From Blastococcus tunisiensis (lineage in GTDB: Bacteria; Actinomycetota; Actinomycetes; Mycobacteriales; Geodermatophilaceae), in NCBI RefSeq assembly GCF_900112815.1, contig NZ_FOND01000004.1:248001-312000 (forward strand): a stretch of DNA of 64,000 bases, read 5' to 3'. A program made the position numbers and the translations under genes. This document shows, piece by piece, positions 6,842 through 28,310 of this stretch. The number at the start of each line of letters is the position of its first letter. Positions within the stretch are counted from its first letter, which is position 1. The notes under the pieces are model-generated. The model was not told the DNA's origin and did no database searches. It saw only the letters and a list, made by a program, of their open reading frames with translations.

Positions 6842-6852
6842 TCGATAATCGA
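6842..6852. promoter_or_regulatory. TCGATWATCGA operator, exact copy (glxK / BKACE divergent region)
   Basis: TCGATAATCGA is an 11-bp palindrome with a central A. It contains GATAAT, usable as a -10 hexamer for rightward transcription, and is followed by GAGAGA. The same palindrome-plus-GAGAGA occurs at 8582. It lies 24 bp before the BKACE ATG. It is likely an FCD-GntR binding site. Confidence 0.65.
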
Positions 6853-6875
6853 GAGAACCATCCAGGGGAGGCTCC

Positions 6876-7799
6876 ATGGCCACGCGAGCGACGTCGGCGA
6901 TCATCACCTGCGCCCCGACGGGCGCGATCCACACGCCGACGATGTCCCCGGCGCTGCCGGTGACGCCGGAGCAGATCGCGCAGGCGGCGCTGGGTGCGGC
7001 GGCCGCCGGCGCGGCGATCGTGCACCTGCACGTGCGCGATCCCCAGGACGGCCACCCGGTGCAGGACCCGGCCCTGTTCAAGGACGTCCTGGCGATCGTC
7101 CAGGACGGCTCCGACGTGGTCATCAACCTCACCACCGGCGGCAGCCCGCACATGTCGGTGGACGAGCGGATCGCCCCGGCCGTGGCGCTTGCCCCCGAGC
7201 TCGCCTCGCTGAACATGGGCTCGATGAACTTCGGCCTGTTCCCGATGCTCGACCGCTACCCGAGCTTCCAGCACGAGTGGGAGCGGGAGCGCCTGGCGGA
7301 CAAGGACGTCGTCTTCAAGAACACCTACGCCGACATCGAGCGGATCCTCAAGCTCTGCGGTGACCAGGGCACCCGCTTCGAGTTCGAGTGCTACGACACC
7401 TCCCACCTCTACAACCTGGCCAACATGCTCGACCGGGGCCTGGTGCGCCCGCCGCTGTTCGTCCAGACCGTCTTCGGTCTCCTGGGCGGCACGGGGGCCG
7501 ACTTCGAGGACCTCGCACACATGCGGCGGACGGCGCAGCGCCTCTTCGGCGACGACTTCGAGTGGTCGGTGCTGGGCGCCGGCTCCTCGCAGATGCGGCT
7601 CGGCGTCATCGCGCTGTCCCTCGGCGGCAACGCGCGGGTGGGCCTGGAGGACTCGCTGTGGGACGGACCGGGCAGACTCGCGGAGTCCAACGCGGCGCAG
7701 GTCGAGCGGATCACCGCCCTGGCCCGCCTGCTGCACCGCGACGTCGCCACCCCGGAGGAGGCACGACGCCGCCTCGACCTGCGCGACGCCAGGCCCTGA
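6876..7799 (+). CDS. BKACE (DUF849) beta-keto acid cleavage enzyme
   Basis: A 307-residue TIM-barrel protein. IITCAPTGAIHTP at the N-terminus, HLHVRDP (His50, His52) and INLTTGGS are hallmarks of the beta-keto acid cleavage family. The paired histidines are Zn ligands in the 3-keto-5-aminohexanoate cleavage enzyme. Members condense a beta-keto acid with acetyl-CoA to give acetoacetate and a new CoA ester; substrate range differs by subgroup. ATG 6876 has AGGGGAGG upstream. A GntR gene follows 22 bp downstream in the same operon. Confidence 0.88.
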   Translation: MATRATSAIITCAPTGAIHTPTMSPALPVTPEQIAQAALGAAAAGAAIVHLHVRDPQDGHPVQDPALFKDVLAIVQDGSDVVINLTTGGSPHMSVDERIAPAVALAPELASLNMGSMNFGLFPMLDRYPSFQHEWERERLADKDVVFKNTYADIERILKLCGDQGTRFEFECYDTSHLYNLANMLDRGLVRPPLFVQTVFGLLGGTGADFEDLAHMRRTAQRLFGDDFEWSVLGAGSSQMRLGVIALSLGGNARVGLEDSLWDGPGRLAESNAAQVERITALARLLHRDVATPEEARRRLDLRDARP

Positions 7800-7821
7800 T
7801 GACCGCCGGAAAGGACCTGCC

Positions 7822-8532
7822 ATGAGCGACGGCCAGCTCAGCCCCGAGATCGGCGGCGAGCTGCTGTCGGCGACGGTGAAGCGCCTCGTCCTGGACCGGA
7901 TCGTCCAGGGGCACTACCAGCCGGGCGAGCGGATCGTGGAGTTCAAGCTCGCCAAGGAGCTCGGCCTCAGCCAGTCCCCCGTGCGCGAGGGGCTCCGCGA
8001 GCTCGCCGCCGTCGGCATCGTCACGATCCACCCCCGCCGCGGCGCCCGGGTGCGGCTGCCGAGCGCCAAGGAGCTGGCCGACGTCAGCCTGGTCCGCGCG
8101 GAGATCGACGCCCTGGCCGCCCGGCTGGCGGCCGGACGCATCTCCGACACCCGGCTGGACGCCCTCGAGGGGCTCGTCGGGGACATGGTCGCGCGGCTGG
8201 ACGCGGGCGACTTCTCCGGCGTGACCGAGGCCGACGTCCGGTTCCACCACCTCATCGCCGAGGCCTCGGAGAACCACGCCCTGGAGCGGGCCTTCGAGCA
8301 GCTCGCCCCGTTCGCCCGGACCTTCATCACGCTGACCCTCCCGGACGTCGACGTCCGGGAGATCGTGGAGCAGCACCGCCCGATCCTGGCGGCACTGCGG
8401 GCCCGGGACGCCGAGCGCGCGGCGGAGGCGGCGCGCGCTCACCAGCTGTCGGTCAGCGAGCTCCTGCAGACCCACTTCCCGGCCGCGCTCGGCGACCCGG
8501 CCGAGGTCCAGGAGAGCTCCCCCGGGGCCTGA
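7822..8532 (+). CDS. GntR/FCD-family transcriptional regulator 1
   Basis: A 236-residue regulator. An N-terminal winged helix includes GERIVEFKLAKELGLSQSPVREGLRELAAVG (in two parts, residues about 33-63). An alpha-helical FCD ligand domain follows, with metal-type positions in VRFHHLI and VEQHRPI. FCD-GntR proteins usually bind small organic acids and repress catabolic operons. It is cotranscribed with BKACE. ATG 7822 is preceded by GGAAAGGA. Operators of the TCGATWATCGA type lie on both sides of this operon (6842, 8582, 8628). Confidence 0.9.
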   Translation: MSDGQLSPEIGGELLSATVKRLVLDRIVQGHYQPGERIVEFKLAKELGLSQSPVREGLRELAAVGIVTIHPRRGARVRLPSAKELADVSLVRAEIDALAARLAAGRISDTRLDALEGLVGDMVARLDAGDFSGVTEADVRFHHLIAEASENHALERAFEQLAPFARTFITLTLPDVDVREIVEQHRPILAALRARDAERAAEAARAHQLSVSELLQTHFPAALGDPAEVQESSPGA

Positions 8533-8581
8533 CCCGCCCCCTCCCCGCTCCCCGGCGGGAACGGCGGACACCGGTCCGCTG

Positions 8582-8637
8582 TCGATTATCGAGAGACCTT
8601 GACGGCCATGGGCATCGACCCCTAGTTTCGATAATCG
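8582..8637 (+). promoter_or_regulatory. Promoter with two flanking TCGATWATCGA operators (dehydrogenase/Mo hydroxylase operon)
   Basis: Operator 1 at 8582-8592 is an exact TCGATTATCGA followed by GAGAGA. A promoter TTGACG (8599-8604) plus TAGTTT (8623-8628) with an 18-bp spacer follows. Operator 2 at 8628-8637 reads TCGATAATCG and matches 10 of 11 bases. The two sites bracket the promoter about 46 bp apart, an arrangement suited to repression by looping or cooperative binding. Confidence 0.65.
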
Positions 8638-8709
8638 GTGATGCACCTGACGCCCTGGGCGTGCAGGACCCACCGCCGGGCCCACCCCGCGAACCACCTG
8701 GAGATACGA

Positions 8710-9765
8710 ATGACGGAGACGATGCAAGCGCTGGTGGTCCTGGAGCCCGACGTCCTGGAGATCCAGGAGAAGCCCGTCCCCGAGCCCGGCCCGCACGAGG
8801 TGCTCGCCCGGGTGCGGTCCACCGCCATCTGCGGCACCGACGCGCACCTGATCCGCGGCGACTACCCCGGTTTCTGGCCGCCGGCCTTCCCGTTCACCCC
8901 GGGGCACGAGTGGGCCGGCGACATCGTCGCGCTGGGCCCCGGCGCCGAGGCCTTCGGCTGGCAGGTCGGCGACCGCGTCGCCGGGACCAGCCACAACGCC
9001 TGCGGGGCGTGCCAGAAGTGCGTGGAAGGGCGCTACAACCTCTGCGAGAACTACGGCAAGCCCGGCCTGCACGCCCAGTACGGGCACAACGTCCAGGGCT
9101 GCGACGCCACCTACGTCGTCCACGACGTGAAGACGATCTTCAAGCTGCCCGACTCGATCTCCTACGACGAGGGCGCGGTGATCGACCCGGCCAGCATCGC
9201 CCTCCACGTGGCCCGGCGCGGCAACATCCAGCCCGGCGACACCGTCGTGGTGACCGGCGCCGGGGCCATCGGCCTGCTGGCCGCCGACAGCGCCCTCATC
9301 TGCGGCGCGGCCCGGGTCGTCGTCGTCGGCCGGGGCTACCGCCTGGAGAAGGCGGCGGCCCTCGGCTTCGAGACCGTCGACACCACCGCCGGCGACCCGG
9401 TGGCCGAGGTCCGCGGGCGCACCGGCGGGCTCGGCGCGGACGTCGTCCTGGAGTGCGCGGGGGTGCCCGACACCCTGACCTGGGCGATGGCGATGCTGCG
9501 GCGGGGCGGGCGCTGCGCGATGGTGGGCATCCCCACCGAGGACGTCGCCCTGAGCATCCAGCCGCTCGTCCTCGACGAGCTGGAGCTGGTCGGTTCCCGC
9601 GCCTCCGCCGGCGAGATGCGCCGGGTGATCCCGTTCGTCGCCGACGGGCGGGTCCGCGTCTCCGAGCTGATCACCCACCGCTTCCCGCTGGCCGAGTACG
9701 ACAAGGCGCTCGCCACCTTCAACGACCGCTCCAGCGGGGCGATGAAGATCATCGTCCACCCCTGA
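8710..9765 (+). CDS. Zinc-dependent MDR-family polyol/threonine-type dehydrogenase
   Basis: A 351-residue medium-chain dehydrogenase. The catalytic zinc site is Cys41 (ICGTDAH) with His66-Glu67 (GHEW). The structural zinc lobe is Cys98, Cys101, Cys104 and Cys112 (CGACQKC...C). The Rossmann motif is VTGAGAIGLLA. Its GTDAHLIRG and GHEWAGDI stretches resemble threonine/sorbitol dehydrogenase-type enzymes that oxidise secondary alcohols with NAD. ATG 8710 follows CTGGAGA. It is the first gene of the operon that continues into the molybdenum hydroxylase. Substrate unknown. Confidence 0.85.
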   Translation: MTETMQALVVLEPDVLEIQEKPVPEPGPHEVLARVRSTAICGTDAHLIRGDYPGFWPPAFPFTPGHEWAGDIVALGPGAEAFGWQVGDRVAGTSHNACGACQKCVEGRYNLCENYGKPGLHAQYGHNVQGCDATYVVHDVKTIFKLPDSISYDEGAVIDPASIALHVARRGNIQPGDTVVVTGAGAIGLLAADSALICGAARVVVVGRGYRLEKAAALGFETVDTTAGDPVAEVRGRTGGLGADVVLECAGVPDTLTWAMAMLRRGGRCAMVGIPTEDVALSIQPLVLDELELVGSRASAGEMRRVIPFVADGRVRVSELITHRFPLAEYDKALATFNDRSSGAMKIIVHP

Positions 9766-9792
9766 CCGGCCCACCGCGGAAGGACGGCGACG

Positions 9793-10647
9793 ATGCCGAA
9801 GTACTACCGGCCGACCACCCGGGCCGACGCGCTCGCCGCGCTGGCCGAGGGCGGTGCGGGCGCGCGGCCCCTCGTCGGGGGCACCGACCTGCTCGTGGGG
9901 CTGCGGCACCACACCCTCGAGCCGGACCTGCTCGTCGACCTCAAGGCGGTCACCGACCTGCCCGAGCCGATCGCCGTCGACGACGAGGGCATGCGGTTCG
10001 GCGCCACCTGCACGCTCGGCGAGCTGGTCGAGCACCCGGTGGTGCGCGAGTGGTACCCGGCCCTGGTGGAGGCAGCGCTCACCGTCGGATCCGTCGCGAT
10101 CCGCAACCGGGCCAGCCTGGTCGCCAACTCGTGCAACGCCTCGCCCGCGGCCGACACCGCTCCCCCGCTCCTCGTGCACGGGGCCCGGGTCACCATCGCG
10201 TCGCTGGACGGGGACCGCACCGCGGCCCTGGACGACTTCTTCCTCGGCCCCCGGCGCACGCTGTGCGGGCCCGGCGAGCTGGTGACCCGGATCGAGCTGC
10301 CACGGCCCGCGCCGGGGTCGGGGGCGGCCTTCCGGCGGCTGACCAGGCGGCGCGGGGTGGACCTCGCGACCGTCAGCGTCGCGGCCGGCGTCGGCCCGGA
10401 CGGCGCCCTCGTGCTCGGGATGGGCGCCGTGGGCCCCCGGCCCCTGCGCGCCGAGGTGCCCGGCCCGGTCGACCTGGACGACGAGGCATCGCTCGCGCCG
10501 GCGCTGGACCGGCTGCTGGCGGCCGCCACCCCGATCTCCGACGTCCGGGGCAGCCGCGAGTACCGGCTCGCCACGCTCCGCGTGCTCACCACGCGCGCGG
10601 TCCGCACCGCCGCGTCCCGACGCAACCCGAGGGAGATGGCGTCATGA
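9793..10647 (+). CDS. Molybdenum hydroxylase FAD-binding (medium) subunit, CoxM-like
   Basis: This 284-residue protein has the FAD-binding elements of xanthine/CO-dehydrogenase medium subunits: LVGGTDLLVGL near residue 30 and TVGSVAIRNRASLVANSCNASPAAD (split around residue 105), the counterpart of the usual TVGGN...SPAAD loop. The C-terminal part forms the CO-dehydrogenase flavoprotein C-terminal fold. It would carry electrons from the iron-sulphur subunit to FAD. It overlaps the 2Fe-2S subunit by ATGA, indicating a stoichiometric complex. Confidence 0.9.
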   Translation: MPKYYRPTTRADALAALAEGGAGARPLVGGTDLLVGLRHHTLEPDLLVDLKAVTDLPEPIAVDDEGMRFGATCTLGELVEHPVVREWYPALVEAALTVGSVAIRNRASLVANSCNASPAADTAPPLLVHGARVTIASLDGDRTAALDDFFLGPRRTLCGPGELVTRIELPRPAPGSGAAFRRLTRRRGVDLATVSVAAGVGPDGALVLGMGAVGPRPLRAEVPGPVDLDDEASLAPALDRLLAAATPISDVRGSREYRLATLRVLTTRAVRTAASRRNPREMAS

Positions 10648-11147
10648 CCAACGACGACCCCGTCGTCGACGACGGGCTGCAGACGGTCCGGCTCAGCGTC
10701 AACGGCACCCGGCGGACGGTCGCGGTGCCGGCGCACCGGACGTTGCTCGACGGGCTGCGCGAGGAGGTCGGGCTGCCCGGCACCAAGAGCTGCTGCGCGG
10801 AGGGCGAGTGCGGCGCGTGCACCGTGCTGCTCGACGGCAAGGCGGTGAACTCCTGCCTGGTGCTGTGCGTCGAGGCCGAGGGCCACGAGGTGACCACCGT
10901 CGAGGGGCTGTCCGCCGACGGCCTCACCGACCTGCAGGAGGAGTTCCTGAACGCCGGGGCCGTGCAGTGCGGCTTCTGCATCCCGGGGCAGGTGGTGTCC
11001 GCCGAGTACCTGCTGCGGACCAACCCCTCCCCCGACGAGGCGGAGATCCGCGAGGCCCTGTCGGGCAACCTGTGCCGCTGCGCCGGCTACCAGCGGATCG
11101 TGCGCGCGGTGCAGGCCACCGCCGTCCGGAGGGGGGCGGCGCAGTGA
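10644..11147 (+). CDS. Molybdenum hydroxylase 2Fe-2S (small) subunit, CoxS-like
   Basis: A 167-residue protein. The plant-type ferredoxin cluster is in CCAEGECGACTVLLDGKAV plus a later Cys, and the second [2Fe-2S] cluster is in CGFCIPG...LCRCAGY. Together these are the two-cluster signature of the xanthine oxidase small subunit family. The start overlaps the flavin subunit stop, and the stop overlaps the large-subunit GTG start. It transfers electrons from the Mo site to FAD. Confidence 0.93.
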   Translation: MTNDDPVVDDGLQTVRLSVNGTRRTVAVPAHRTLLDGLREEVGLPGTKSCCAEGECGACTVLLDGKAVNSCLVLCVEAEGHEVTTVEGLSADGLTDLQEEFLNAGAVQCGFCIPGQVVSAEYLLRTNPSPDEAEIREALSGNLCRCAGYQRIVRAVQATAVRRGAAQ

Positions 11148-13465
11148 CCACGGCCCCCGAACGAGCCATCGCGCAGCGCGACGCGCTCGGCGAGCCCGCC
11201 GACCTCTACCCGGGTGGCCAGGTCGGCCGGCCGGTGCTCCGGTACGGCGGCGGTGACCGGACGTCGGGCGCCCAGCAGTTCGTCGCCGACCTGCGCTTCC
11301 CCGGCGCGCTGCAGGTCGCCCTGGTGACGGTCCCGGTCGGGTGCGCCGACGTGCTGGGGATCGACACCGCGGCGGCCCGCGCCGTCCCCGGGGTGGTGGA
11401 CGTGGTGACGGCCGCGGAGCTGCCCTCGCCCGTGCCGCGGTTCGGGGTCTCCCACACCGACCGCCCGGTGCTCGCCGACGGCCGGGTCAACTACCACGGC
11501 GAACCGGTGGCCGCGGTGGTCGCCGAGACCCTCGACGCGGCCCAGGCCGCCGCGCGCGCGGTGGTCGTGGACTACCGGGAGCTCCCGGGCGTCTACTCCC
11601 TCGACGCCGCCCTCGCCCCGGGCGCGCACCTCGTGCAGGATCCCTCGATCCGGCCGGAGCACGCCCTCATCGACACCAACGTGCTGGAGGACGCGCACTA
11701 CGCCTGGGGAGACATCGAGGCGGAGGAGGCGCGCGCGGACGTCGTCGTCGAGAACACCTACACCTTCCCGATGGTCACCCACTTCCCGATCGAGCCGGGC
11801 GGCACCGTCGCCGTCCCGACCGACTCCGGCGGGCTGGACGTCTACTCCCCCGTGCAGCACCCCTACCTGCTGCAGCGCACCATCTCCTCGGTCTTCGGCC
11901 TGCCGCTGAACCAGGTGCGGGTGTTCGCGCCCGACCCCGGTGGCGGCTTCGGCGGCAAGCAGAACCCGAAGCTCGAGCCGCTGATCGCCTTCCTCGCCCT
12001 GCGCACCCGGCGGGTCTGCCGGATCGTGCTGTCCCTCGAGGAGACCTTCCAGAGCATGCGGCGGGCCGGCTGCCGGATGCGGGCGCGCACCGGATTCACC
12101 TCCGACGGCGAGCTCACCTTCCACCGGGTCGAGGCCGACTTCCAGATCGGCGCCTACGCCGACGTCGCGCCGCGGGTCATGGGCAAGGGCAGCTACGTCG
12201 CGGCCGGGCCCTACCGCATCCCGGGGGTGCGGATCGACGCCCGCGCCGTCATGACCAACACCACGCCGAGCACCGCCTTCCGCGGCTTCGGCAGCCCCCA
12301 GGTGTCGTGGGCGATGGAGTCCCAGCTCGACGCCGGCGCCCGGGAGCTGGGCCTCGACGGTCTGGAGATCCGCCGCCGGAACCTGGTCGCCCAGGGCGAG
12401 GCCTTCGTGCGCGGGGAGTCCGCCGCGCACGCCGACGGCGACTGGCACCAGAGCCTGGAGAAGGCCGCCGAGCTGATCGGCTGGGGGACGCCGCTGCCGC
12501 CGAACCGCGGCCGGGGCATCGCGGTGGGCATCAAGCCCGGTGCCACCTCGGGCCTGTCGCAGAGCCTGGTCCGCCTGCTGTGCGACGGCAGCGCGATCGT
12601 CTACGCCGGCACCTCCGACATGGGGCAGGGGGCACGGACGCTCTGGCAGCAGATCGTCGCCGACGAGCTCGGGGCCGAGCTGGACCGGGTCACGGTGGTC
12701 AGCGGCGACACCGGGACGGTGCCGTTCGACCTGCAGACCTCGGCGAGCCGGTCGACGGTGTTCATGGGCTCGGCCGTGCTGGAGGCCTGCCACGACGTGC
12801 GGCGGCGGGTGCTCGAGCTGTACGCCGAGTCGACGGGCGTGCCGGCGGAGCAGCTCGACGTCCGTCCCGGCCTGCTGATCACCCCCGACGGGGAGCTGAG
12901 CCTGCCGGAGGCCGCCCGCCAGGCGCTCGGCTCGCTGCGCGGGGAGTTCATCGGGCAGGGCACGCGGCGGCTGCGTGGCAAGGGCGCGCACCCGCTCGGC
13001 GGTGACGCGGCCTTCTACGAGTTCAACGCAACGGCCATCGAGGTCGAGGTCGACCGGGAGACCGGCGAGCTGCTGCTCACCCGGCACGTGACGGTCAGCG
13101 ACGTCGGCACCGAGCTCAACCCGCTGCAGGTCGTCTCCCAGGACGAGGGCGCGGCGATCATGGGCCTCGGCCACAGCCAGATGGAGCAGCTGCTGCTCGA
13201 CGACCACGGCCGGATCCGCAACCTGGGCGCCCTCGACTACCGGATCCCCACCTTCAAGGACGTCCCGCTGGAGCTGGTCAGCGAGGCCGTGGAGAACCAC
13301 GACGGCCCCGGGCCGTACGGCTCGAAGGGCATCAGCGAGGGCGCCCTGCTGTGCACCGCCGGCGCGCTCGGCGCCGCGGTGGCCGACGCCACCGGCGTCG
13401 TGATCCGCGATCTCCCGCTCACCCCCGAGCGGGTGTGGACGGCGCTCCAGGGCGCCGACAGCTGA
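11144..13465 (+). CDS. Molybdenum hydroxylase large subunit, xanthine dehydrogenase/CoxL-like
   Basis: A 773-residue molybdopterin-binding subunit beginning at GTG 11144, fused by overlap to the small subunit. It shows PDPGGGFGGKQNPK, AFRGFGSPQ and YGSKGISEGALL. The Glu in GSKGISEG is the conserved catalytic base position. The Cox-specific VAYRCSFR active-site loop is absent, so it is a hydroxylase and not a CO dehydrogenase. These enzymes hydroxylate an aromatic or aldehyde carbon using water. No accessory maturation gene (coxD, coxF, xdhC) is next to it. Substrate unknown. Confidence 0.9.
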   Translation: MTTAPERAIAQRDALGEPADLYPGGQVGRPVLRYGGGDRTSGAQQFVADLRFPGALQVALVTVPVGCADVLGIDTAAARAVPGVVDVVTAAELPSPVPRFGVSHTDRPVLADGRVNYHGEPVAAVVAETLDAAQAAARAVVVDYRELPGVYSLDAALAPGAHLVQDPSIRPEHALIDTNVLEDAHYAWGDIEAEEARADVVVENTYTFPMVTHFPIEPGGTVAVPTDSGGLDVYSPVQHPYLLQRTISSVFGLPLNQVRVFAPDPGGGFGGKQNPKLEPLIAFLALRTRRVCRIVLSLEETFQSMRRAGCRMRARTGFTSDGELTFHRVEADFQIGAYADVAPRVMGKGSYVAAGPYRIPGVRIDARAVMTNTTPSTAFRGFGSPQVSWAMESQLDAGARELGLDGLEIRRRNLVAQGEAFVRGESAAHADGDWHQSLEKAAELIGWGTPLPPNRGRGIAVGIKPGATSGLSQSLVRLLCDGSAIVYAGTSDMGQGARTLWQQIVADELGAELDRVTVVSGDTGTVPFDLQTSASRSTVFMGSAVLEACHDVRRRVLELYAESTGVPAEQLDVRPGLLITPDGELSLPEAARQALGSLRGEFIGQGTRRLRGKGAHPLGGDAAFYEFNATAIEVEVDRETGELLLTRHVTVSDVGTELNPLQVVSQDEGAAIMGLGHSQMEQLLLDDHGRIRNLGALDYRIPTFKDVPLELVSEAVENHDGPGPYGSKGISEGALLCTAGALGAAVADATGVVIRDLPLTPERVWTALQGADS

Positions 13466-13553
13466 CCCCGTCGCCTGCGAGGGCGAGGACGGCGGAGCCC
13501 ACGGGCCGCCGCCGACCGCACCACCGACCTGCACCCGTCACAAAGGAGTGGCC

Positions 13554-14840
13554 ATGTCCCGCAAGCCCGTCGTCTGTCTCGCCGGCACCCTGGACACCAA
13601 GGGGACCGAGTACGCCTACGTGCGCGACGAACTGCTCGCCAGCGACGTCGACGTCCTCGTCGTCGACTGCGGTGTCCTCGGCGAGCCCTACTTCCCGCCG
13701 GACATCGCGTCCGCCGAGGTGGCTGCCCGGGCCGGCGTGGACCTGGCCGAGTTCGCCGCGGGCGTCGAGGGCGGAGCCGGTGGCCGCAGCGCGGCGATCA
13801 CCAAGATGAGCGAGGGCCTGCGCGCGGTGATCGCCGACCTCTGCGCCGAGGGGCGGATCGACGCGGTCCTCGGCCTCGGCGGCACCGGTGGCACCGACCT
13901 CCTCGGGGGCGCCCTGCAGAACCTCGGCATCGGGGTGCCGAAGCTCATCGTGAGCACCATGGCGTCCAACAACACCCGGCCCTACGTCGGCCACTCGGAC
14001 ATGATGATGATGAACGCCGTCACCGACATCGCCGGGCTGAACCGGATCTCCAAGCAGGTGCTGAGCAACGCCGCGCACGCGGCCGCCGGCATGGCGCGCG
14101 GGTACGAGGCCACCAAGGCGCAGGCGGAGACCAGCAAGCCGCTCATCGCCATCTCGATGTTCGGCGTCACCACGCCCGGCGTCATGCGCATCCGGGAGCA
14201 GCTGGAGGAGAACGGCTTCGAGGTCGTCACCTTCCACGCGGTCGGCGAGGGCGCCGGCATGGAGCACCTGATCGACACCGGTGCCATCGACGGCCTGATC
14301 GACTACACGCTGCCGGAGATCATCAACCACTGGAACAAGGGCATCTTCGACCCGGGCTGCGAGCGCATGGAGGCCGCGGTCCGCACCGGGATCCCGCTGG
14401 TCGTCGTCCCGGGCGCGGCCGAGTGCTTCAACTTCGGCGCCCGGAACACCATCCCGGCCGAGTTCGACACCGACGAGCGCAACATCATCATCCACAACCC
14501 CAACATCACCTCCCTGCTGGCGACCCCGGACGAGATGCGGCGGCTCGGGACCTACATCGCCGAGCACGTGAACTCCGCCCCCGGACCGAAGGCGGTCGCG
14601 CTGCCGCTGAACGGGCTGGACAACTACTTCAAGGAGGGCAGCCAGTGGCACGGCGTGGACGTCTCGCCGCTGCTGGACTCCATCCGCGCGACGCTGGACC
14701 CCTCGATCGAGCTGGTCGAGATGGACAACAACATCAACGACACGGCGTTCGCCGACGCGGTCTACCAGCTGTTCACCGCGCAGTGGGAGCAGCGGAAGGC
14801 GGCCGGCATCCCCGCGGCCACCGCGACGACCGCCGGCTGA
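13554..14840 (+). CDS. Tm-1-like ATP-binding domain protein (UPF0261)
   Basis: A 428-residue UPF0261 protein with VCLAGTLDTKGTEYAYVRD at the N-terminus, LGLGGTGGTDLLGGAL, the SNNTRPYVGHSDMMMMNAV block and FGVTTPGVMR. These are signatures of the Tm-1-like family, named for the tomato virus-resistance protein whose N-terminal domain binds ATP. Bacterial members have no established reaction but recur in catabolic operons. ATG 13554 is preferred because AAAGGAG ends 5 bp upstream. It sits 88 bp after the hydroxylase and before a strong terminator, so it is probably the last gene of that operon. Confidence 0.88.
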   Translation: MSRKPVVCLAGTLDTKGTEYAYVRDELLASDVDVLVVDCGVLGEPYFPPDIASAEVAARAGVDLAEFAAGVEGGAGGRSAAITKMSEGLRAVIADLCAEGRIDAVLGLGGTGGTDLLGGALQNLGIGVPKLIVSTMASNNTRPYVGHSDMMMMNAVTDIAGLNRISKQVLSNAAHAAAGMARGYEATKAQAETSKPLIAISMFGVTTPGVMRIREQLEENGFEVVTFHAVGEGAGMEHLIDTGAIDGLIDYTLPEIINHWNKGIFDPGCERMEAAVRTGIPLVVVPGAAECFNFGARNTIPAEFDTDERNIIIHNPNITSLLATPDEMRRLGTYIAEHVNSAPGPKAVALPLNGLDNYFKEGSQWHGVDVSPLLDSIRATLDPSIELVEMDNNINDTAFADAVYQLFTAQWEQRKAAGIPAATATTAG

Positions 14841-15708: not shown

Positions 15709-15741
15709 TTGACACACAACGGATCGAGAATCGATTATTAC
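15709..15741 (+). promoter_or_regulatory. Promoter with degenerate TCGATWATCGA site (MBL/SDR/MDR operon)
   Basis: TTGACA (15709-15714) and GATTAT (15733-15738) have an 18-bp spacer. The -10 lies inside TCGATTATTAC (15731-15741), which matches the first eight bases of the TCGATTATCGA operator. A nearby ATCGAGAATCGAT adds a second half-site. This is a weaker member of the operator set. Confidence 0.5.
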
Positions 15742-16711: not shown

Positions 16712-16752
16712 TCCCGCTCCCCCACTCACCGTCCCGGAGGTCTCCGCACGCC

Positions 16753-19921: not shown

Positions 19922-19940
19922 CGTCGGTCCTCGTCCCGGC

Positions 19941-21431
<1,491 letters not shown>

Positions 21432-21504: not shown

Positions 21505-22212
21505 TCAGGACGTCCCGGTGGCCTGCGACTCCGCGCCGTGGACCTGCTGCTCGGCGACCTCGGCCAGGTGCCCGGCCAGCCGCTCGCGGACCTCGTCGAA
21601 GTGGGTCTCGATCGCGCGCACGACGGCCTCGGCGTCCCGGCGGCCGACGGCCTCGAGGATCGGGTCGTGCAGCGAGCAGGTCCAGCGCGGGTCGGAGTGG
21701 GGGCCGAGCAGGGTGATGTAGGTGCGCGACAGCGGCTCCAGCGACCGCCAGACGCGCAGCAGCGTGCGGTTGCCGGAGACCTGCATGATCTTCTCGTGCA
21801 GGCTGGCGTCCATGATCGCCAGCGCCCGTCCGTCGCCGGCGTCCGCCGCCCGGTGCATGTCCTCCCCGATGGCCAGCAGCGCGCTCACGTCCGCCTCGGT
21901 CAGGTTCGCCATGGCCAGGCGGGCGCCGAGCACCTCGATCGTCGAGCGGACGACGTAGGCCTCCAGCAGCTCCTCGGTGTCCAGCCGGCGCACCCGGGCG
22001 CCGCGGAACGGCGTGATGGCGATCAGCCCCAGCGCCTCCAGGCCGCGGAGTGCCTCGCGGACGGGGGCCTGGCTGGTGCCGAACTCCTTGGCCACCGCGG
22101 TCTCGACGATCCGCGAGTCGGGTGGGTAGGAGCCGTCGAGGATCCCCTCCAGCAGCCGCTCCTTCACCTGGTCGGCGAGGACGCTGCGCGTGAGGGCGTC
22201 GGGGCCGGACAT
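21505..22212 (-). CDS. GntR/FCD-family transcriptional regulator 2
   Basis: A 235-residue FCD-GntR protein. The winged helix contains [20 protein letters not shown] and a helical C-terminal domain follows. ATG 22212 has GGAGGT 5 bp upstream. The HTH recognition helix ([17 protein letters not shown]) is nearly the same as in regulator 3 ([16 protein letters not shown]) and close to regulator 1 (LSQSPVREGLREL). This predicts that all three see similar operators. It heads the leftward operon with mmsA and transaldolase and is divergent from the liv genes. Confidence 0.9.
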
Positions 22213-22374: not shown

Positions 22375-22385
22375 TCGATAATCGA
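22375..22385. promoter_or_regulatory. TCGATWATCGA operator, exact copy (gntR2 side)
   Basis: TCGATAATCGA, flanked by T and TGATCA. It lies 163 bp upstream of the gntR2 start in the 463-bp divergent region, which holds no gene. It presumably controls the leftward gntR-mmsA-tal operon. Confidence 0.65.
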
Positions 22386-22567: not shown

Positions 22568-22578
22568 TCGATTATCGA
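22568..22578. promoter_or_regulatory. TCGATWATCGA operator, exact copy (liv side)
   Basis: TCGATTATCGA about 98 bp ahead of the livH-like ATG, with an embedded GATTAT. The next bases (ACCGATGTTCGATCGA) contain further ATCGA half-sites. It presumably controls the importer operon. Confidence 0.65.
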
Positions 22579-22675: not shown

Positions 22676-23545
22676 ATGGACACCTTGATCATCGGCCTCA
22701 TCGAGGCCGCGCCGCTGGTCCTCGCGGCCATCGGTTTCACGTTGATCTACTACCTCAACGGGTTCATCAACGTGGCCTACGCCGAGACCGTGACGTCCGG
22801 CGCCTACTTCGCGATCCTGTTCAACAGCATCCTGGGGCTGAACTTCTACGCAGCGATCGTCCCCGCCGCCCTGCTGGCCGGGGCGCTCAGCGCGCTGACG
22901 TACGTGGCCGTCTTCCGGCCGGCCCTGCGCCGCGGCGTCGGCAAGATCGAGATGATCGTGCTCTCGGTGGGCCTGTCGTTCCTCATGCGGCACGCCGTCC
23001 GGCTGTTCTTCGGGGTCGACCTCTACCTGTTCGACATCACCGACCCGTCGTACCTGTCGGTGTTCGGCACCGGTGTCACCAGCGCGCAGATCTGGGCGAT
23101 GGTCCTCGCCGTCCTCATCGCCGTCGGCGCCTACCTGCTCACGTACAAGACGACCTACGGGCAGCAGATCCGCGGGCTGGCCAGCAACGCCGACCTGGCG
23201 GCCACCAGCGGGATCGACCCGACGAAGACCTCGGTCCTGGTCTGGTTCGTCTCCGGCGTCGCCGGCGGGCTGGCCGGCATCTTCATCGGCGTCTTCTCGT
23301 TCGTCGACTACACGCTCGGCTGGAACCTGATCCTGATCATCATCATGGTCACGATCATCGGCGGGATCGGCAGCGTCCGTGGCGCCCTCGTGGCCGGGGC
23401 GGCCACCGGGATCGCCACCGCCGTCCTCACCAACCTCTCCGACCCGCTCTACGCGCAGGTGTTCCTGCTGCTGCTGTTCATCGCGGTGCTGCGGTTCCGC
23501 GCCGCGGCCGCACGGTCGGTCAAGACCCTGATGGCGAGGAGCTGA
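22676..23545 (+). CDS. Branched-chain-amino-acid-type ABC transporter permease (LivH-like)
   Basis: A 289-residue integral membrane protein with about eight hydrophobic helices. TLIYYLNGFINVAYAE at the N-terminus and the cytoplasmic coupling loop RGLASNADLAATSGID are typical of LivH. GGIGSVRGALVAGAA is the conserved C-terminal motif. It pairs with the LivM-like gene 3 bp downstream. The importer class carries branched amino acids, short amides or aromatic acids, so substrate cannot be called from the permease. First gene of the five-gene importer operon. Confidence 0.88.
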   Translation: MDTLIIGLIEAAPLVLAAIGFTLIYYLNGFINVAYAETVTSGAYFAILFNSILGLNFYAAIVPAALLAGALSALTYVAVFRPALRRGVGKIEMIVLSVGLSFLMRHAVRLFFGVDLYLFDITDPSYLSVFGTGVTSAQIWAMVLAVLIAVGAYLLTYKTTYGQQIRGLASNADLAATSGIDPTKTSVLVWFVSGVAGGLAGIFIGVFSFVDYTLGWNLILIIIMVTIIGGIGSVRGALVAGAATGIATAVLTNLSDPLYAQVFLLLLFIAVLRFRAAAARSVKTLMARS

Positions 23546-23548
23546 CCC

Positions 23549-24478
23549 GTGAACGCACTCGTCTTCCCGCTCCAGGGGCTGACGATCATCGTCTGCCTCG
23601 GCGTCCTGCTGCACCTGCAGTTCGGCCGGACCGGCATCGTGAACTTCGGGGTGGTGGGCTTCTCCGGACTCGGGATGTACACCACCGGCATCCTCGTCGT
23701 GAACTACGAGGTCCCCTTCGCCCTGGCGCTGCTGATCGCCACCGCGCTCACCGGGCTGGTCGCCTTCCTCCTGGGGTTGCTGATCCTCAACCTCGAGAGC
23801 GAAGCGGTCCTGGTCGCCACCCTGGCGTTCTCCACCATCGTCTTCTACCTCGTGACGTCGGAGTCCTGGCTGACCGAGGGCGTCGTCGGGCTGGGCACGG
23901 TTCCCCGGCCCTTCGACGTGGGCGACACGTCGACGAGCCAGCTGCTCTTCCTGCTGGTGCTCGTCGCGATCGCCGCGGCGCTCCTGGTCTACGCCGCCCG
24001 CCTCCAGCACGCGCCCTACGGGCGGCTGCTGTTCAGCATCCAGGACAACGAGACCCTGAGCCGCAGCCTGGGCAAGCCCACCTTCCGGCACAAGCTGGTG
24101 TTCTTCACGGTGACCTGCGCGGCGATGGGTGCCATCGGCGGGCTGGACGCCTCGGTGAACCAGTTCCTGGTGCCGCGGCTGCTCACCGCGGACCTCACCT
24201 TCGTGGTGTGGATCGCCCTGGTCCTCGGCGGCCGCAAGCGGGTGTTCGGCGCCGTCCTCGGCACCCTGCTCACCGTCGGGATCTTCGACATCGTGATCGA
24301 GCTCTACGTCGACGTCCCGCGCGAGTTCGCGCAGCAGCTCCCCAACGTCCAGCTGATGCTCTTCGGCCTCACGCTGATCCTGGTCATCCTGTTCCGCCCC
24401 CAGGGCCTGCTCGGCGAGCGCAGACGGAAGCCCCAGGACAGCCCCACCGCCGAGAGTCGGAAGAAGGTCCAGGCATGA
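23549..24478 (+). CDS. Branched-chain-amino-acid-type ABC transporter permease (LivM-like)
   Basis: A 309-residue polytopic protein starting at GTG 23549. LQFGRTGIVNFGVVGFSGLGMYT is the LivM N-terminal signature (split here at residues 23-45). The coupling loop SIQDNETLSRSLGKPTFRHK and VLGGRKRVFGAVLGT follow. The charged C-terminal tail is cytoplasmic. The LivG start overlaps its stop by four bases. It forms the membrane heterodimer with the LivH-like protein. Confidence 0.88.
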   Translation: MNALVFPLQGLTIIVCLGVLLHLQFGRTGIVNFGVVGFSGLGMYTTGILVVNYEVPFALALLIATALTGLVAFLLGLLILNLESEAVLVATLAFSTIVFYLVTSESWLTEGVVGLGTVPRPFDVGDTSTSQLLFLLVLVAIAAALLVYAARLQHAPYGRLLFSIQDNETLSRSLGKPTFRHKLVFFTVTCAAMGAIGGLDASVNQFLVPRLLTADLTFVVWIALVLGGRKRVFGAVLGTLLTVGIFDIVIELYVDVPREFAQQLPNVQLMLFGLTLILVILFRPQGLLGERRRKPQDSPTAESRKKVQA

Positions 24479-25284
24479 CCGGCGCATCCTCCGCCACGCG
24501 GCCTCCCGGCAGCCCGGCCGCCGGCGCGAAGACCCTGCACCTGCACGACGTGCACAAGCACTACGGCGGGCGGACGGTCGTCGACATCGACGACCTGGTG
24601 CTGGGCGCCCACGGCATCGAGGGGCTCATCGGACCCAACGGGGCCGGCAAGACCACGCTGATGAAGCTGATCACCCACGTGGTGTCGCCCGACCGCGGGC
24701 GCATCGAGTACCACTCCCCCGACGGCACGGTGCTGCTCACCCAGCACAGCCCCGACGCCATCGCGCGGATGGGCGTGGTCAAGACCAACCAGGTGATCCA
24801 GGACTTCGAGAGCCTGACCATCCGCGAGTCGCTGCTGCTGTCCCTGGCCGGCGCCGAGCAGGAGAAGTTCTACAAGGTGCTCCGGGACAAGGCGTTCCTG
24901 CGCCGGGCCGACCAGGAGATCGACGAGTACCTCGACATCTTCACCTTCCAGGACCCGGACGGCCGGGCCGGATCGGCCGGCGAGAAGAAGCTCCTGGACA
25001 TCCTCCGCTGCCTGCTGCTCAAGCCGCGGTTCCTCCTCATGGACGAACCGACGGCGGGGCTGCCGCAGGAGGAGACGGACAAGGTCATGGAGCTCATGCG
25101 GACGAAGACCCAGGAGACGGACCTCTCGATCCTGATCATCGAGCACGATCTCGATCTCATCTGGGGGACCTGCGAATTCGTCCACTTCATGGCGGAGGGG
25201 GAGATTCTCCTGCAAGGCACACCCAGCGACGTCCGCAGCAACGCCACCGTGGCGGAGAAGTACCTGGGGGCCAGCCATGCTTGA
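24475..25284 (+). CDS. ABC transporter ATP-binding protein (LivG-like) with divergent signature motif
   Basis: A 269-residue ATPase. Walker A is GPNGAGKTT and Walker B is FLLMDEPTAGL, with EHDLDLI as the H-loop. The region that should read LSxGQ is SAGEKKLLDILRCLL, a degenerate signature. An insertion-like stretch (HSPDGTVLLTQHSPDAIARMG) extends the usual pre-Q-loop region. The partner LivF has a normal LSGGEGQ, so one ATP site of the heterodimer may be non-canonical. The stop overlaps livF by eight bases. Confidence 0.87.
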   Translation: MTGASSATRPPGSPAAGAKTLHLHDVHKHYGGRTVVDIDDLVLGAHGIEGLIGPNGAGKTTLMKLITHVVSPDRGRIEYHSPDGTVLLTQHSPDAIARMGVVKTNQVIQDFESLTIRESLLLSLAGAEQEKFYKVLRDKAFLRRADQEIDEYLDIFTFQDPDGRAGSAGEKKLLDILRCLLLKPRFLLMDEPTAGLPQEETDKVMELMRTKTQETDLSILIIEHDLDLIWGTCEFVHFMAEGEILLQGTPSDVRSNATVAEKYLGASHA

Positions 25285-25969
25285 GGTCTCCGGGCTCCGC
25301 AGCGGCTACGGCGACGTCACCGTGCTCCGCGGCATCAGCTTCTCGCTGGACCACGAGATCTTCGCCGTGCTCGGCGCCAACGGCGCGGGGAAGAGCACGC
25401 TGCTGAAGACGCTGGCGCGGCTGCTGCCCATCACCGGCGGCTCCCTGACCTTCCGGGGACGCGACGTCACCCAGTCGCAGCCGCACCGCCTCGCCGCGGC
25501 GGGACTGGCCTACGTCCCGCAGGAGTCGAACGTGTTCCCCGACCTGACCGTGGCCGAGAACCTCTCGATCGGCGGGCTGATCGGCACGCGCACCAAGGAG
25601 GAGCGGCTCGAGGAGCTGTTCGACCTCTTCCCGGCCCTGTCGGCCCGGATGCGGCAGAAGGCCGGGACGCTCAGCGGCGGCGAGGGGCAGATGGTCGCCG
25701 TCGGCCGCGCGCTCATGCAGGACCCGTCGCTGATCCTGCTCGACGAGCCGACGGCCGGGCTGTCACCCAAGTACGCCGACGCCCTGTTCTCCATGATCTC
25801 GACGATCCACCGGGACAAGGGGCTGAGCGTCGTGCTCGCCGAGCAGAACGCCTCGAAGACGCTGGCCATCGCCCACCGGGCCATGGTGCTCAACCTCGGG
25901 GAGGTGTTCGTCATCGACCAGGCCGCGAATCTCGACACCGACTCGCTCCGGGAGGGCTACCGCCTGTAG
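25277..25969 (+). CDS. ABC transporter ATP-binding protein (LivF-like)
   Basis: A 230-residue ATPase with Walker A GANGAGKST, Q-loop YVPQESNVFP, signature LSGGEGQMVAVGRAL and Walker B LILLDEPTAGLSPK. AEQNASKTLAIAHRAMVLNLG is the LivF-type H-loop region. It starts at ATG 25277 inside the end of the LivG-like gene. It drives the importer with its LivG partner. Confidence 0.9.
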   Translation: MLEVSGLRSGYGDVTVLRGISFSLDHEIFAVLGANGAGKSTLLKTLARLLPITGGSLTFRGRDVTQSQPHRLAAAGLAYVPQESNVFPDLTVAENLSIGGLIGTRTKEERLEELFDLFPALSARMRQKAGTLSGGEGQMVAVGRALMQDPSLILLDEPTAGLSPKYADALFSMISTIHRDKGLSVVLAEQNASKTLAIAHRAMVLNLGEVFVIDQAANLDTDSLREGYRL

Positions 25970-26021
25970 CGGCCCTCCCCCCTCAGCCGGACACCCGTTC
26001 CCGCCCCACCTGGAGGCAATC

Positions 26022-27353
26022 ATGAAGAACACTGCACGATTCCGCGGCGCCAAGGCGCTGACCGTCGGCATGTCCATCCTGCTCGCGTCGGCATGCGCCT
26101 CCGGCTCCGCCGGCTCCGACGACGACGCCGCCGCCGGCGGTGGCGGTGGCGGTGGCGAGTGCGCCGAGGGGGACGGCCCCATCACCGTGGGGCACCTCAA
26201 CTACTACACCGGACCCTTCTCCGACGTCGGCCCGTTCTTCGAGGCCACCGTGGAGCTGGTCATCGACAACATCAACGAGAACCCGCCGCTGGACCGGGAG
26301 CTCGAGGCGTCCCACGACGACATCGGCACGGTCGGCGAGGCGCAGGTCGCCCGCAACTTCCTGCAGCAGGAGGACGTCGACATCCTGCTGAACCCGGCGC
26401 ACGAGTACTCGTCGTACCAGGAGTTCGCCCAGGACTACGTCGCCGAGAACGACGCGCCGATCATGCCGTCGCTGCACGGCGGGTCGATCCCCGCCGACAT
26501 CGGCGGCACCGCGGCGGAGCCCATCTTCCGCGGCCAGGCGATGGACACCGCGCAGGCGATCGCCGGCGTGCTCCAGGCGCGGGAGGCCGGCGCGGAGACC
26601 ATCGCGATCGTGGCGACGCAGATCTCCGGCAGCCAGCTGCAGAAGGAGGCCGCGGAGGCCGCCGCCGAGGAGATCGGCCTCGAGGTCGTCGAGGTCATCG
26701 ACGTCCAGCCCGAGCAGCCGAACTACCGCAGCACGATCAGCACGATCGCCGGCGCCGACCCCGACGCGCTGCTGCTGTTCAGCCAGGCGGAGGACGGCGG
26801 CACGATGGTGAAGCAGGCGGCGGAGGCCGGCCTGTCCCTCACCATCATCGGCTCCACCGAGTGGCTGCAGGAGGCGTTCCCGCAGTCGGCCACGCAGAGC
26901 GCGCTGGAGCAGCACGAGGCGGTCTGGATCGCCGGCCTCGGCACCGCGGACACCCCGGCCTGGGACGCCTGGAAGGAGCTGTGGGAGGGCTCCGACGCCA
27001 CGGAGTACGCCGACGCGGCGAACTCCTACGCCTACGGCTACTACGACCTGCTGAACGTGACGGCGCTGGCCATCGAGGCGGCCGGCAGCGTCTGCGCCAG
27101 CGACTGGGTCGAGGCCATGCCGGAGGTCACGGAGGGCGGCACCGAGGTGTTCACCTACGAGGAGGGCATCGAGGCGCTGCGCGACGGCGAGGACATCGAC
27201 TACAACGGCGTGAGCGGGAACTACGAGTACACCGACACCGGCGTGGTCGGCAGCCTCTTCGGCGTCTACGAGTGGCAGGGCGACTCCCTGGAGCAGGTCA
27301 CCACGGTGGACGAGGAGGAGGTCCTCGAGCTGGACACCAAGGTCAGCCAGTAG
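26022..27353 (+). CDS. ABC transporter substrate-binding lipoprotein (LivJ-like)
   Basis: A 443-residue periplasmic-binding protein type 1. A lipoprotein signal runs to the lipobox LASAC (Cys25), then a Ser/Asp/Gly-rich linker and the ligand domain starting ITVGHLNYYTGPFSDVGPF. AAGADP/DALLLFSQAEDGGTMVKQA is the hinge region of Leu/Ile/Val-type binding proteins. It is 52 bp downstream of livF with TGGAGG before the ATG. Its closest functional relatives bind aromatic or short-chain acids and amides. The ligand is not deducible. Confidence 0.88.
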   Translation: MKNTARFRGAKALTVGMSILLASACASGSAGSDDDAAAGGGGGGGECAEGDGPITVGHLNYYTGPFSDVGPFFEATVELVIDNINENPPLDRELEASHDDIGTVGEAQVARNFLQQEDVDILLNPAHEYSSYQEFAQDYVAENDAPIMPSLHGGSIPADIGGTAAEPIFRGQAMDTAQAIAGVLQAREAGAETIAIVATQISGSQLQKEAAEAAAEEIGLEVVEVIDVQPEQPNYRSTISTIAGADPDALLLFSQAEDGGTMVKQAAEAGLSLTIIGSTEWLQEAFPQSATQSALEQHEAVWIAGLGTADTPAWDAWKELWEGSDATEYADAANSYAYGYYDLLNVTALAIEAAGSVCASDWVEAMPEVTEGGTEVFTYEEGIEALRDGEDIDYNGVSGNYEYTDTGVVGSLFGVYEWQGDSLEQVTTVDEEEVLELDTKVSQ

Positions 27354-27366
27354 GCGGGTGATCGGT

Positions 27367-27446
27367 GCCCGCCGGTCCCCCGGGGCCGGCGGGCAGCACC
27401 GCCCGACGACGAGGGCGCCGCACCCCGTGGGTGCGGCGCCCTCGTC
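27367..27446. terminator. Double hairpin terminator between importer operon and gntR3
   Basis: Hairpin 1 pairs 27367-27375 with 27386-27394 (9 bp). Hairpin 2 pairs 27408-27425 with 27429-27446, an 18-bp perfect stem with a 3-nt CGT loop. It lies between convergent genes and can act in both directions. Confidence 0.75.
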
Positions 27447-27461
27447 GGCCGGCCGGCCGGC

Positions 27462-28124
27462 TCAGGTGCCGGCGCCGCCGAGGTGGCCGATCACCGAGGC
27501 ACCGAAGAACTCGATGTGGGCGCGCATCTCCTTGCCGAGCAGCTCGGGGTCGCGGAACTCGACGGCCTGCAGGACCGGCCGGTGCAGCTCGGCGATCGCG
27601 TGCAGGTCGGAGTGGCTCTTCAGCGCGCTGACCAGGCTCCGGGCCTCCACCCGCAGCGACCGCCAGACGTCCAGCAGGACCTGGTTCCCGGAGGCCTCGA
27701 CGATGATCTCGTGGAAGCGGGTGTCGTGGACCATGAGCGCGTGCAGGTCGCCGGCCCGTGCCGCGCGGCGCATCCCGGCGAGCTCGTCGCCGAGCAGGAC
27801 CAGCTCGGCCTCGGTGATCCGCGGGGCGGCCGCACGGCCGGCGACCTCCTCGAGCGCGGCCCGGACCGGGTAGATCTGGACGAGCTCCTCGCCGGTCACC
27901 TCGCGCACCCGCGCGCCGCGGTGCGGCTGCGACTCGACGAAGCGCATCGCCTCGAGGTCGCGCAGCGCCTCGCGCACGGGCGCCTGGCTGACGCCGAACT
28001 CGGCCGCCACGGCGCTCTCGACGATGCGCTCGCCGGGCCCGTACGTGCCGTCCAGGATGCGCTCGACGATGCGCTCCTTGATGGCGTCGCGAAGCAGCAC
28101 GGTGCGCCCAGCCGGTCGCGGCAT
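27462..28124 (-). CDS. GntR/FCD-family transcriptional regulator 3
   Basis: A 220-residue FCD-GntR regulator. The winged helix includes GERIVESAVAAEFGVSQAPVR, and the FCD domain has metal-site-type residues in HDTRFHEIIVEAS and AELHRPVLQA. ATG 28124 is chosen because GAGGTGAGG lies just upstream. ATG 28139 is an in-frame alternative. It is transcribed alone and diverges from the dikinase operon, with variant operators in the shared region. Confidence 0.9.
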   Translation of the reverse strand: MPRPAGRTVLLRDAIKERIVERILDGTYGPGERIVESAVAAEFGVSQAPVREALRDLEAMRFVESQPHRGARVREVTGEELVQIYPVRAALEEVAGRAAAPRITEAELVLLGDELAGMRRAARAGDLHALMVHDTRFHEIIVEASGNQVLLDVWRSLRVEARSLVSALKSHSDLHAIAELHRPVLQAVEFRDPELLGKEMRAHIEFFGASVIGHLGGAGT

Positions 28125-28135
28125 GCCCTCACCTC

Positions 28136-28175
28136 TCATCGATGAACAGTTCGGAGACCGCTCAGTTATCGATAG
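28136..28175. promoter_or_regulatory. Variant palindromes upstream of gntR3
   Basis: TCATCGATGA (28136-28145) and TATCGATA (28167-28174, in context GTTATCGATAG) share the ATCGAT core of the cluster operator. The first lies 12 bp ahead of the gntR3 ATG and could mediate autoregulation. Confidence 0.4.
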
Positions 28176-28276
28176 TTAGCGCTGCGGAGGCGGGCGCTGT
28201 CAAGCAGCCACCGGCCCGCTGCGGCGCCGCCTGTGGGCGGGGACGCCCGCGTCCGCCGGTCCGTGCCGGCAGGGGG

Positions 28277-28310
28277 TTGACGCCTGTCACAGCATCTGCT
28301 TGATTATCGA
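28277..28310 (+). promoter_or_regulatory. Dikinase-operon promoter with TCGATWATCGA site
   Basis: TTGACG (28277-28282) is followed after 17 bp by TTGATTATCGA (28300-28310), which matches the operator at 10 of 11 bases and overlaps the -10 (TTGATT or GATTAT). A repressor here would block the polymerase directly. The dikinase ATG is about 100 bp downstream. Confidence 0.6.

Follow-up and report, generated by a model that had tools for sequence, protein, structure and literature searches.

Bacteria have many repressors of the GntR group, a large one, and the operators of many of these are not known. Members of the FadR subfamily, which carry an FCD domain, bind operators of the form TKGT-N2/3-ACMA, and further half-sites may lie 7-12 nt away from the centre (Suvorova et al. 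2015, PMC4494728). Here we describe the palindrome TCGATWATCGA, together with an even-dyad form of it (TTATCGATWG), in a cluster of nutrient-degradation genes that encodes three FCD-type GntR regulators, G1, G2, and G3. The cluster lies in a 64-kb stretch of DNA (the window, whose positions serve as coordinates throughout) from a Blastococcus-like soil bacterium.

Several described systems are close to this one. In the FadR subfamily, Arg45 of FadR is helix-turn-helix (HTH) position 38, with the Arg of a conserved Arg-Glu pair following four residues later, and Gln is listed as preferring A (PMC4494728). Atu1419 of Agrobacterium fabrum reads ATGTATACAT with Arg45, and changing the contacted G to A abolished binding (PMC7797058). 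BioR has the operator TTATMKATAA (PMC4494728) and belongs to the biotin genes of alpha-proteobacteria (PMC4554459). GntR1 and GntR2 of Corynebacterium glutamicum are paralogous, redundant regulators of gluconate catabolism (PMC2230225), and NanR is a GntR repressor of which several dimers occupy a short operator of 6-bp direct GGTATA repeats (PMC8012715, PMC4494728).

Our locus resembles the FadR-subfamily repressors in its GntR and FCD domains, short palindromes, and regulator genes among the targets. However, its sites either have A in place of the conserved G of TKGT (TTAT-CG-ATAA) or read as the 11-mer TCGA-TWA-TCGA, and Gln replaces Arg38. It shares with Atu1419 an FCD-type GntR on a catabolic region, an operator over the -10, and paired palindromes, but its Gln-type operators carry the very letter that abolishes Atu1419 binding. 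BioR is likewise an exception in the FadR subfamily with A at the same position, and its operator is the nearest known sequence to the even-dyad form; here, however, the centre is CG instead of MK, the second half of TTATMKATAA is found in neither TTATCGATWG nor TCGATWATCGA, and no biotin gene occurs among the scanned cluster genes. Paralogues acting on one gene set recall GntR1/GntR2, and a short repeated operator recalls NanR, but our regulators are three divergent lineages with a different operator, whose period is 7 bp and palindromic (ATCGATW). We consider it likely that three FCD-GntR repressors jointly control the catabolic cluster, with TCGATWATCGA and its even-dyad form as their operators.

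The palindrome and its promoters

The window contains seven copies of TCGATWATCGA at no more than one mismatch, while shuffled sequences average 0.15 and none of 100 shuffles reaches seven. Four are exact (6842, 8582, 22375, and 22568) and three have one mismatch (8628, 15724, and 28300). We scanned the whole genome (5,036,776 bases, 43 contigs, 99.74% complete) and found no exact copy besides these four in its 5.04 Mb. Allowing one mismatch gives 19 places, of which the 12 outside the window have a G/C centre (TCGATSATCGA, 11 places) or read TCGGTAATCGA (one place). A preliminary description of this DNA had listed the four exact copies and the mismatched ones at 8628 and 28300, all of which are present, and had proposed that a motif equally frequent elsewhere in the genome would refute a local regulon; exact copies occur only in the window. 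It also listed three weaker sites. The one at 15731 is overlapped by a further one-mismatch copy (TCGAGAATCGA at 15724), and those at 28136 (TCATCGATGA) and 28167 (inside TTATCGATAG) are present but belong to the even-dyad form. The 28136 site overlaps the G3 start codon, and no full copy of it was seen in two related genomes (G017 and G005).

Searching 112 genomes of the family with G1 gave 10 matching at E <= 1e-33. Nine of these (the cluster genomes, from four genera) have a G1 orthologue, 72-100% identical, and the tenth (G100, a fifth genus) has a G2-type match only. All three regulators are present in seven of the nine, and only G1 and G3 were found in G005 and G129 (80% complete). Conservation in related genomes, which had been suggested as a check, holds operon by operon across the nine genomes and four genera. 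The site before the beta-keto acid cleavage enzyme (BKACE) gene is present in all nine, as is the distal site of the first alcohol dehydrogenase gene (ADH1), three times with a G/C centre. The ADH1-proximal site is found at no more than one mismatch in seven (not in G118 or G123), the MBL-operon site in all seven genomes whose fetched stretch showed the operon, and the G2 site in all seven with G2 (two exact, one with a half-site mismatch, and four with a G/C centre). The site before the phosphoenolpyruvate (PEP)-utilising mobile-domain gene (PEPm) is within one mismatch in eight, and the ninth, G005, carries ATTATCGATAG instead. Deviations specific to a promoter are also kept: TCGATWATCGG at ADH1-proximal and TCGAGAATCGATTAT at MBL, each in 7/7. 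One-mismatch copies precede a second UPF0261 gene in five genomes, which suggests that added operons carry the element.

For promoter geometry we used a list of 54 sites with at most one mismatch, G/C centres included and sites near glyK and the methylmalonate-semialdehyde-dehydrogenase-like and transaldolase-like genes left out. TTGAC occurs within 55 bp upstream of 28 of them (G2 7/7, MBL 7/7, ADH1-proximal 7/7, PEPm 7/8). TTGACG-N17/18-TAnnnT occurs at all seven ADH1-proximal sites, whose centres lie 10-11 bp beyond the start of the -10, each of the seven G2 sites has a TTGAC-N17/18-TAnnnT promoter, and at MBL the TTGACA starts 19-20 bp ahead of the site centre. The sites often lie over promoter cores, as expected for repressor operators. 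The preliminary description had placed the -10 hexamer inside the palindrome, which is true of the PEP-synthase-like and MBL promoters (GATTAT, by eye), but at ADH1-proximal and G2 the palindrome lies over the start region, immediately downstream of the best TAnnnT.

At the distal ADH1 site, TTGAC begins 11-13 bp after the site centre in 9/9 genomes. This puts the site directly upstream of a -35-like element, a possible activator position, so the FCD proteins could be activators, or mixed activator-repressors, working through it. We find this improbable, because the MBL, G2, PEPm, and ADH1-proximal sites lie on or directly downstream of core elements. Blocking of the promoter core is the simplest reading of repression.

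Three regulators and the reach of the motif

Each of G1, G2, and G3 has a GntR winged helix-turn-helix (wHTH, PF00392) and an FCD domain (PF07729) above the Pfam cut-offs, which agrees with their earlier naming as FCD-GntR regulators and places them in the FadR subfamily. In the AlphaFold model of G2 (mean predicted local distance difference test score 85.6), seven helices follow the wHTH, one of them 6 residues long, and the effector domain as modelled for G2 is all-helical. In FCD domains an Asp and three His of the pocket bind a metal; D135, H139, H182, and H204 are invariant in 24 aligned rows and are the putative ligands here.

The three DNA-binding domains are 53-64% identical and the FCD domains 33-39%. 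In a paralogue control that cut the domains at a different place, the DNA-binding domains are 47-60% identical versus a mean of 39% (maximum 57%) for 63 other pairs from 12 proteins of the same genome (9/11 other FCDs parsed), so the excess identity is modest. The greater difference between FCD domains would fit different ligands, but it is partly usual for the family. Operators precede the G2 and G3 genes and the BKACE-G1 operon, at the regulators' own promoters, and we predict that all three are autoregulated local repressors.

In our tree, 63 of the 65 rows with Gln in the recognition helix (SQ rows) form one clade (99/99), with L126 and L196 outside it and G1, G2, and G3 in different subclades. 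The tree is rough, since its branches are long and its bootstrap did not settle, and almost every SQ row was retrieved using patterns or profiles built from G1-G3. As judged from it, the three are separate old lineages; a recent local duplication is unsupported because they fall in different subclades. In the G2 clade (loci L069-L087), actinobacterial G2-type regulators nest within Chloroflexota ones, and many share neighbours, e.g., PEPm and molybdenum-hydroxylase genes, which together suggest transfer of the module between phyla.

The motif is also present where only a G2-type, only a G1-type, or (in one metagenome-assembled genome, MAG) only a G3-type regulator was found. G427, in our judgement identical with the G100 assembly, matches the three-regulator profile strongly only once, with a regulator of G2 type, and its seven other matches have non-SQ helices; its single exact copy in 5.2 Mb precedes the PEPm-G2 genes. 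In G430 there are two matches, one of G1 type and one with an SR helix (Arg in place of Gln), and Streptomyces cellulosae (G429) has one G1-type match and 14 others (11 fetched, 10 parsed, one SQTP helix). Both have two exact copies, which lie on the same contig as G1 and no more than 9 kb from it. The single match in a Micromonosporaceae MAG (G428) is of G3 type (78%), with an exact copy adjoining it and three on other contigs.

One contig scan with the 24 aligned regulators gave 63 loci, with flanks of up to 10 kb on each side. A strict SQxP helix is present in 58, and an exact copy lies in the flanks of 37 of these and of 0/5 others; at 23 of the 63 it is within 1.5 kb of the regulator start. 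TCGAT-W-ATCGA ranked first of 1024 half-sites (55 seen vs 0.23 expected in 1.04 Mb from the 63 loci). Loci with exact copies span five phyla: Actinomycetota, Chloroflexota, Thermodesulfobacteriota, a Sulfurimonas, and a Rhodospirillaceae MAG, in which a doubled site precedes an RND-like gene. Because the fetching patterns contain the SQ helix, the sample is enriched by design for that helix, not for the motif. None of the 11 other FCD genes in our own genome has a site at two or fewer mismatches in ~450 bp upstream, and none has Gln at the helix place. In a class-wide control, an exact copy lay within 1.5 kb at 1/30 FCD loci (one locus being our own genome's), and the 21 helices parsed were 19 SR, one SK, and one SQ.

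The reverse rule, from motif to regulator, was dropped as a generality: across 29 genomes of the class, an SQ-FCD helix lay within 1.5 kb at only 2/29 motif loci. With the other 27 loci away from any such helix, other proteins may use similar palindromes, and an unrelated regulator encoded elsewhere might bind the palindrome with the FCD proteins as bystanders. Against this, the motif accompanies SQ-helix FCD genes in five phyla, and of the 47 exact copies in 13 whole genomes selected for a known copy, 24 are no more than 20 kb away from a regulator (the one that brought the genome in, or another match below 1e-75); most of the remaining copies are in Desulfofustis genomes. We therefore rate a foreign regulator as very unlikely.

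Two operator forms and one helix residue

The 11-mer forms the core of an extended array with a 7-bp period (about TATNATCGATWATCGATNATA). The letters beyond the 11-mer are T (0.67), one free position, A (0.55), T (0.53), and A (0.45), versus a background of 0.17. Among even palindromes, TTATCGATAA is first of 1024 (26 seen vs 0.13 expected; 17 of 59 loci), and the G3 promoter region carries the even-dyad form TTATCGATWG. One could imagine a division of labour, with G1 and G2 owning TCGATWATCGA and G3 using only even-dyad sites (TTATCGATAG and TTATCGATTG) at its own divergent promoter, with little cross-talk. Consistent with this, the variant form of the G3-side site is kept in G000, G017, and G005, and TTGATTATCGATTG is kept at the PEPm-side site in seven genomes. 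However, the G3 promoter of G129 holds an exact TCGATTATCGA, the Micromonosporaceae MAG with only a G3-type regulator has an overlapping ACGATAATCGATAATCGA upstream of it, and both forms overlap in one array at 20 of the 55 exact copies, in several subclades. Strict division is therefore doubtful in our view, and the same three observations led us to drop the idea of a G3 operator unrelated to TCGATWATCGA.

The local regulon of one operator type and three paralogous FCD-GntRs, as first described, is thus conserved in nine genomes (in two without G2 found) but needs three amendments: the 11-mer is only the core of an array, with an even-dyad variant at the G3 promoter region; the motif, rather than being private to the cluster, accompanies an SQ-helix clade of FCD-GntRs that extends across phyla; and the three regulators are, by the rough tree, separate old lineages.

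All 24 aligned rows have Gln at HTH position 38 (Q51 in G1, Q48 in G2, and Q52 in G3), so with operators TCGATWATCGA and TTATCGATWG these proteins fall outside the canonical class of Arg38 and TKGT-N2/3-ACMA. TTAT-CG-ATAA is the 2-nt-spaced FadR-family TKGT-NN-ACMA with G changed to A. Relatives show the same pairing, an SR-helix relative having ATT-G-TCGACAAT and SQ-helix relatives ATT-A-TCGATAAT. Among plasmid loci retrieved solely by their similarity to G3 (8/12 matches read), three SR-helix Nitratireductor regulators have ATTGTCGACAAT upstream and, being orthologous, count as one observation. Three of the five SQ-helix plasmid regulators have an ATCGAT-centred palindrome upstream, and that of Corynebacterium occultum has the array TAGATAATCGATAATCGGTAATCGA before the next gene. 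Desulfofustis SQ-helix loci carry ATTATCGATAAT in 5/5 read together with kin, and L126, the Acidobacteriia SQ protein outside the main clade, has it upstream too. The Arg/Gln-G/A pair is, on these sequence comparisons, a candidate for a natural one-residue, one-base specificity switch.

Related loci vary further. Among five Streptosporangiaceae SQ-helix regulators (L109, L113, L118, L122, and L226), four have ATGATCGATCAT upstream and L122 retains only its ATCGATCAT part, a sister operator variant. On a Thermomicrobium roseum plasmid (L219), an SQ-helix GntR with GAGAATCGATTCTC upstream is surrounded by Tm-1-like, PEP-hydrolase-family, cyclase, PEP/pyruvate-binding, FAD-binding, and FAA-hydrolase genes, a related cluster. 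Among 30 loci from a search of 289 genomes with the BioR pattern, most of them AT-rich and apparently due to chance, one had a GntR-type SHVP helix by a BioR-like site and one was an unrelated pattern match. The former (L253, 1494-1518, site ATTATCTATAAT, from the class of the Rhodospirillaceae MAG; possibly a BioR) has an SHVPVREA helix instead of Gln, perhaps a third residue at the specificity position.

Repression would work as follows. Dimers would bind the ATCGATW elements on or beside the promoter core, one on an odd centre or two on even centres, and block initiation until a carboxylate-type metabolite in each FCD domain releases the repressor from DNA. Recognition would keep the FadR-family register, with Gln at HTH 38 (FadR Arg45) facing A.T and Arg facing G.C. 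With similar recognition surfaces but differing FCD domains, the three regulators probably report different intermediates onto one operator set. Motif specificity, conservation, promoter positions, and the SQ-helix association are computed results; binding, repression, ligands, and the Gln-A contact are what we infer.

A number of results weigh against joint control by three SQ-helix repressors. At seventeen of the 54 listed sites, neither the 55 bp upstream nor the 25 bp downstream contain a TTGAC (BKACE 9, livH 2, second UPF0261 5, PEPm 1), and G/C centres make up four of the seven G2-promoter sites. The variant site in the G3 promoter region makes a G3-specific preference possible. No exact copy was found in the fetched flanks of 21/58 SQ loci (some have even-dyad variants, some nothing recognised) or within 1.5 kb of control locus L196, an SQIP-helix FCD outside the main clade, and one of the five SQ plasmid regulators, L222, has no convincing site. 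The control FCD locus that does have an exact copy has an SR helix, the motif by itself does not predict the regulator and so is not diagnostic, and the single Sulfurimonas copy could be chance, as the reversed control pattern occurs twice there.

The cluster and what the operators may mean

Features of the cluster are given in Table 1. G3 and the PEP-synthase-like/FAA hydrolase/aldehyde dehydrogenase operon are a divergent pair. The best Protein Data Bank match of the hydroxylase large subunit is 4-hydroxybenzoyl-CoA reductase alpha (1e-89), with nicotinate dehydrogenase also among the nearest, and BKACE passes an NCBIfam model named for 3,5-dioxohexanoate. Our guess is that the substrate is an aromatic or alicyclic acid. 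The BKACE family name hints at a phloroglucinol pathway, which we rejected as its ring-opening cyclase (PMC10470551) was not seen among those cluster genes that were scanned. Two 27-base inverted arms seen by eye at 18719-18773 (GAGTGCGACGAACTGGTGGTCATCAGC and GCTGATGACCACCAGTTCGTCGCACTC), between the convergent ADH2 and transaldolase-like genes, are probably a two-way terminator. In G067, ADH2 matched (E <= 1e-20) only as two short C-terminal pieces (C1:3040323-3040774), so the gene there may be broken or shortened.

Table 1. Genes and operator sites of the catabolic cluster (window coordinates)
Feature	Position	Strand	Evidence or remark
Operator TCGATAATCGA before BKACE-G1 operon	6842..6852		exact; in 9/9 cluster genomes, 7 exact and 2 one-mismatch
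BKACE (DUF849)	6876..7799	+	Pfam PF05853 1.6e-104; NCBIfam NF053538 472.9 bits (cut-off 430)
G1 FCD-GntR regulator, helix SQSPVREGLREL	7822..8532	+	Pfam GntR, FCD
Distal ADH1-operon operator	8582..8592		exact; directly upstream of TTGACG -35-like element
Proximal ADH1 operator TCGATAATCGG	8628..8638		one mismatch; end of -10/start region of promoter
Zinc alcohol dehydrogenase ADH1 (likely start 8710), first gene of molybdenum-hydroxylase operon	8638..9765	+	Pfam ADH_N, ADH_zinc_N
Three-subunit molybdenum hydroxylase (FAD, 2Fe-2S, large)	9793..13465	+	large subunit Pfam MoCoBD; two small subunits named from sequence only
UPF0261 (Tm-1-like) protein	13548..14840	+	Pfam
MBL-operon operator TCGAGAATCGATTATTAC	15724..15741		two overlapping 11-mers, second degenerate; TCGAGAATCGATTAT kept in 7/7 genomes with operon found
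MBL-fold hydrolase, SDR, ADH2 operon	15839..18665	+	MBL Pfam; ADH2 NCBIfam matches below cut-off; SDR named from sequence
Transaldolase-like and methylmalonate-semialdehyde-dehydrogenase-like genes	18797..21431	-	Pfam TAL_FSA, Aldedh; TIGR01722 711.9 bits
G2 FCD-GntR regulator	21505..22212	-	Pfam GntR, FCD
Operator before G2	22375..22385		exact; directly downstream of TTGACG-N17-TAGGCT
Operator before liv-type ABC transporter operon	22568..22578		exact; also in G067, the sole other fetched cluster genome with the transporter
Branched-chain-amino-acid-type ABC transporter and binding protein	22676..27353	+	Pfam BPD_transp_2, ABC_tran, Peripla_BP_6; livG (24475-25284) from sequence only
G3 FCD-GntR regulator	27462..28139	-	Pfam GntR, FCD
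G3-side operator, even-dyad form TTATCGATAG	28166..28175		TTATCGATAGT kept in G000, G017, G005 (three genomes read here)
Operator TTGATTATCGATTGT over -10 region of PEP-synthase-like operon	28300..28314		at most one mismatch in 8/9 genomes
PEP-utilising mobile-domain protein, PPDK-N protein, FAA hydrolase, aldehyde dehydrogenase	28340..33619	+	Pfam

Beyond the cluster, we lean, by a small measure, towards regarding the cross-phylum Gln-for-Arg FCD-GntR clade as an undescribed operator class (ATCGATW arrays, with A for the canonical G) that combines a three-input, one-operator switch here with a one-residue, one-base switch. In open-licence PubMed Central, 142 papers contain a motif string, the 30 listed of them include no title on a GntR operator, and no text combines GntR with any of five degenerate or longer motif forms. 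If the SQ-helix rule is true, the helix signature predicts the operator, and hence the regulon, of uncharacterised FCD-GntRs in several phyla. It would also make available an old one-residue specificity switch, in which a Gln to Arg exchange would shift the preference from TTATCGATAA to TTGTCGACAA if Gln goes with A and Arg with G. The cluster itself would be a clear example of a single operator set on which three sensors converge.

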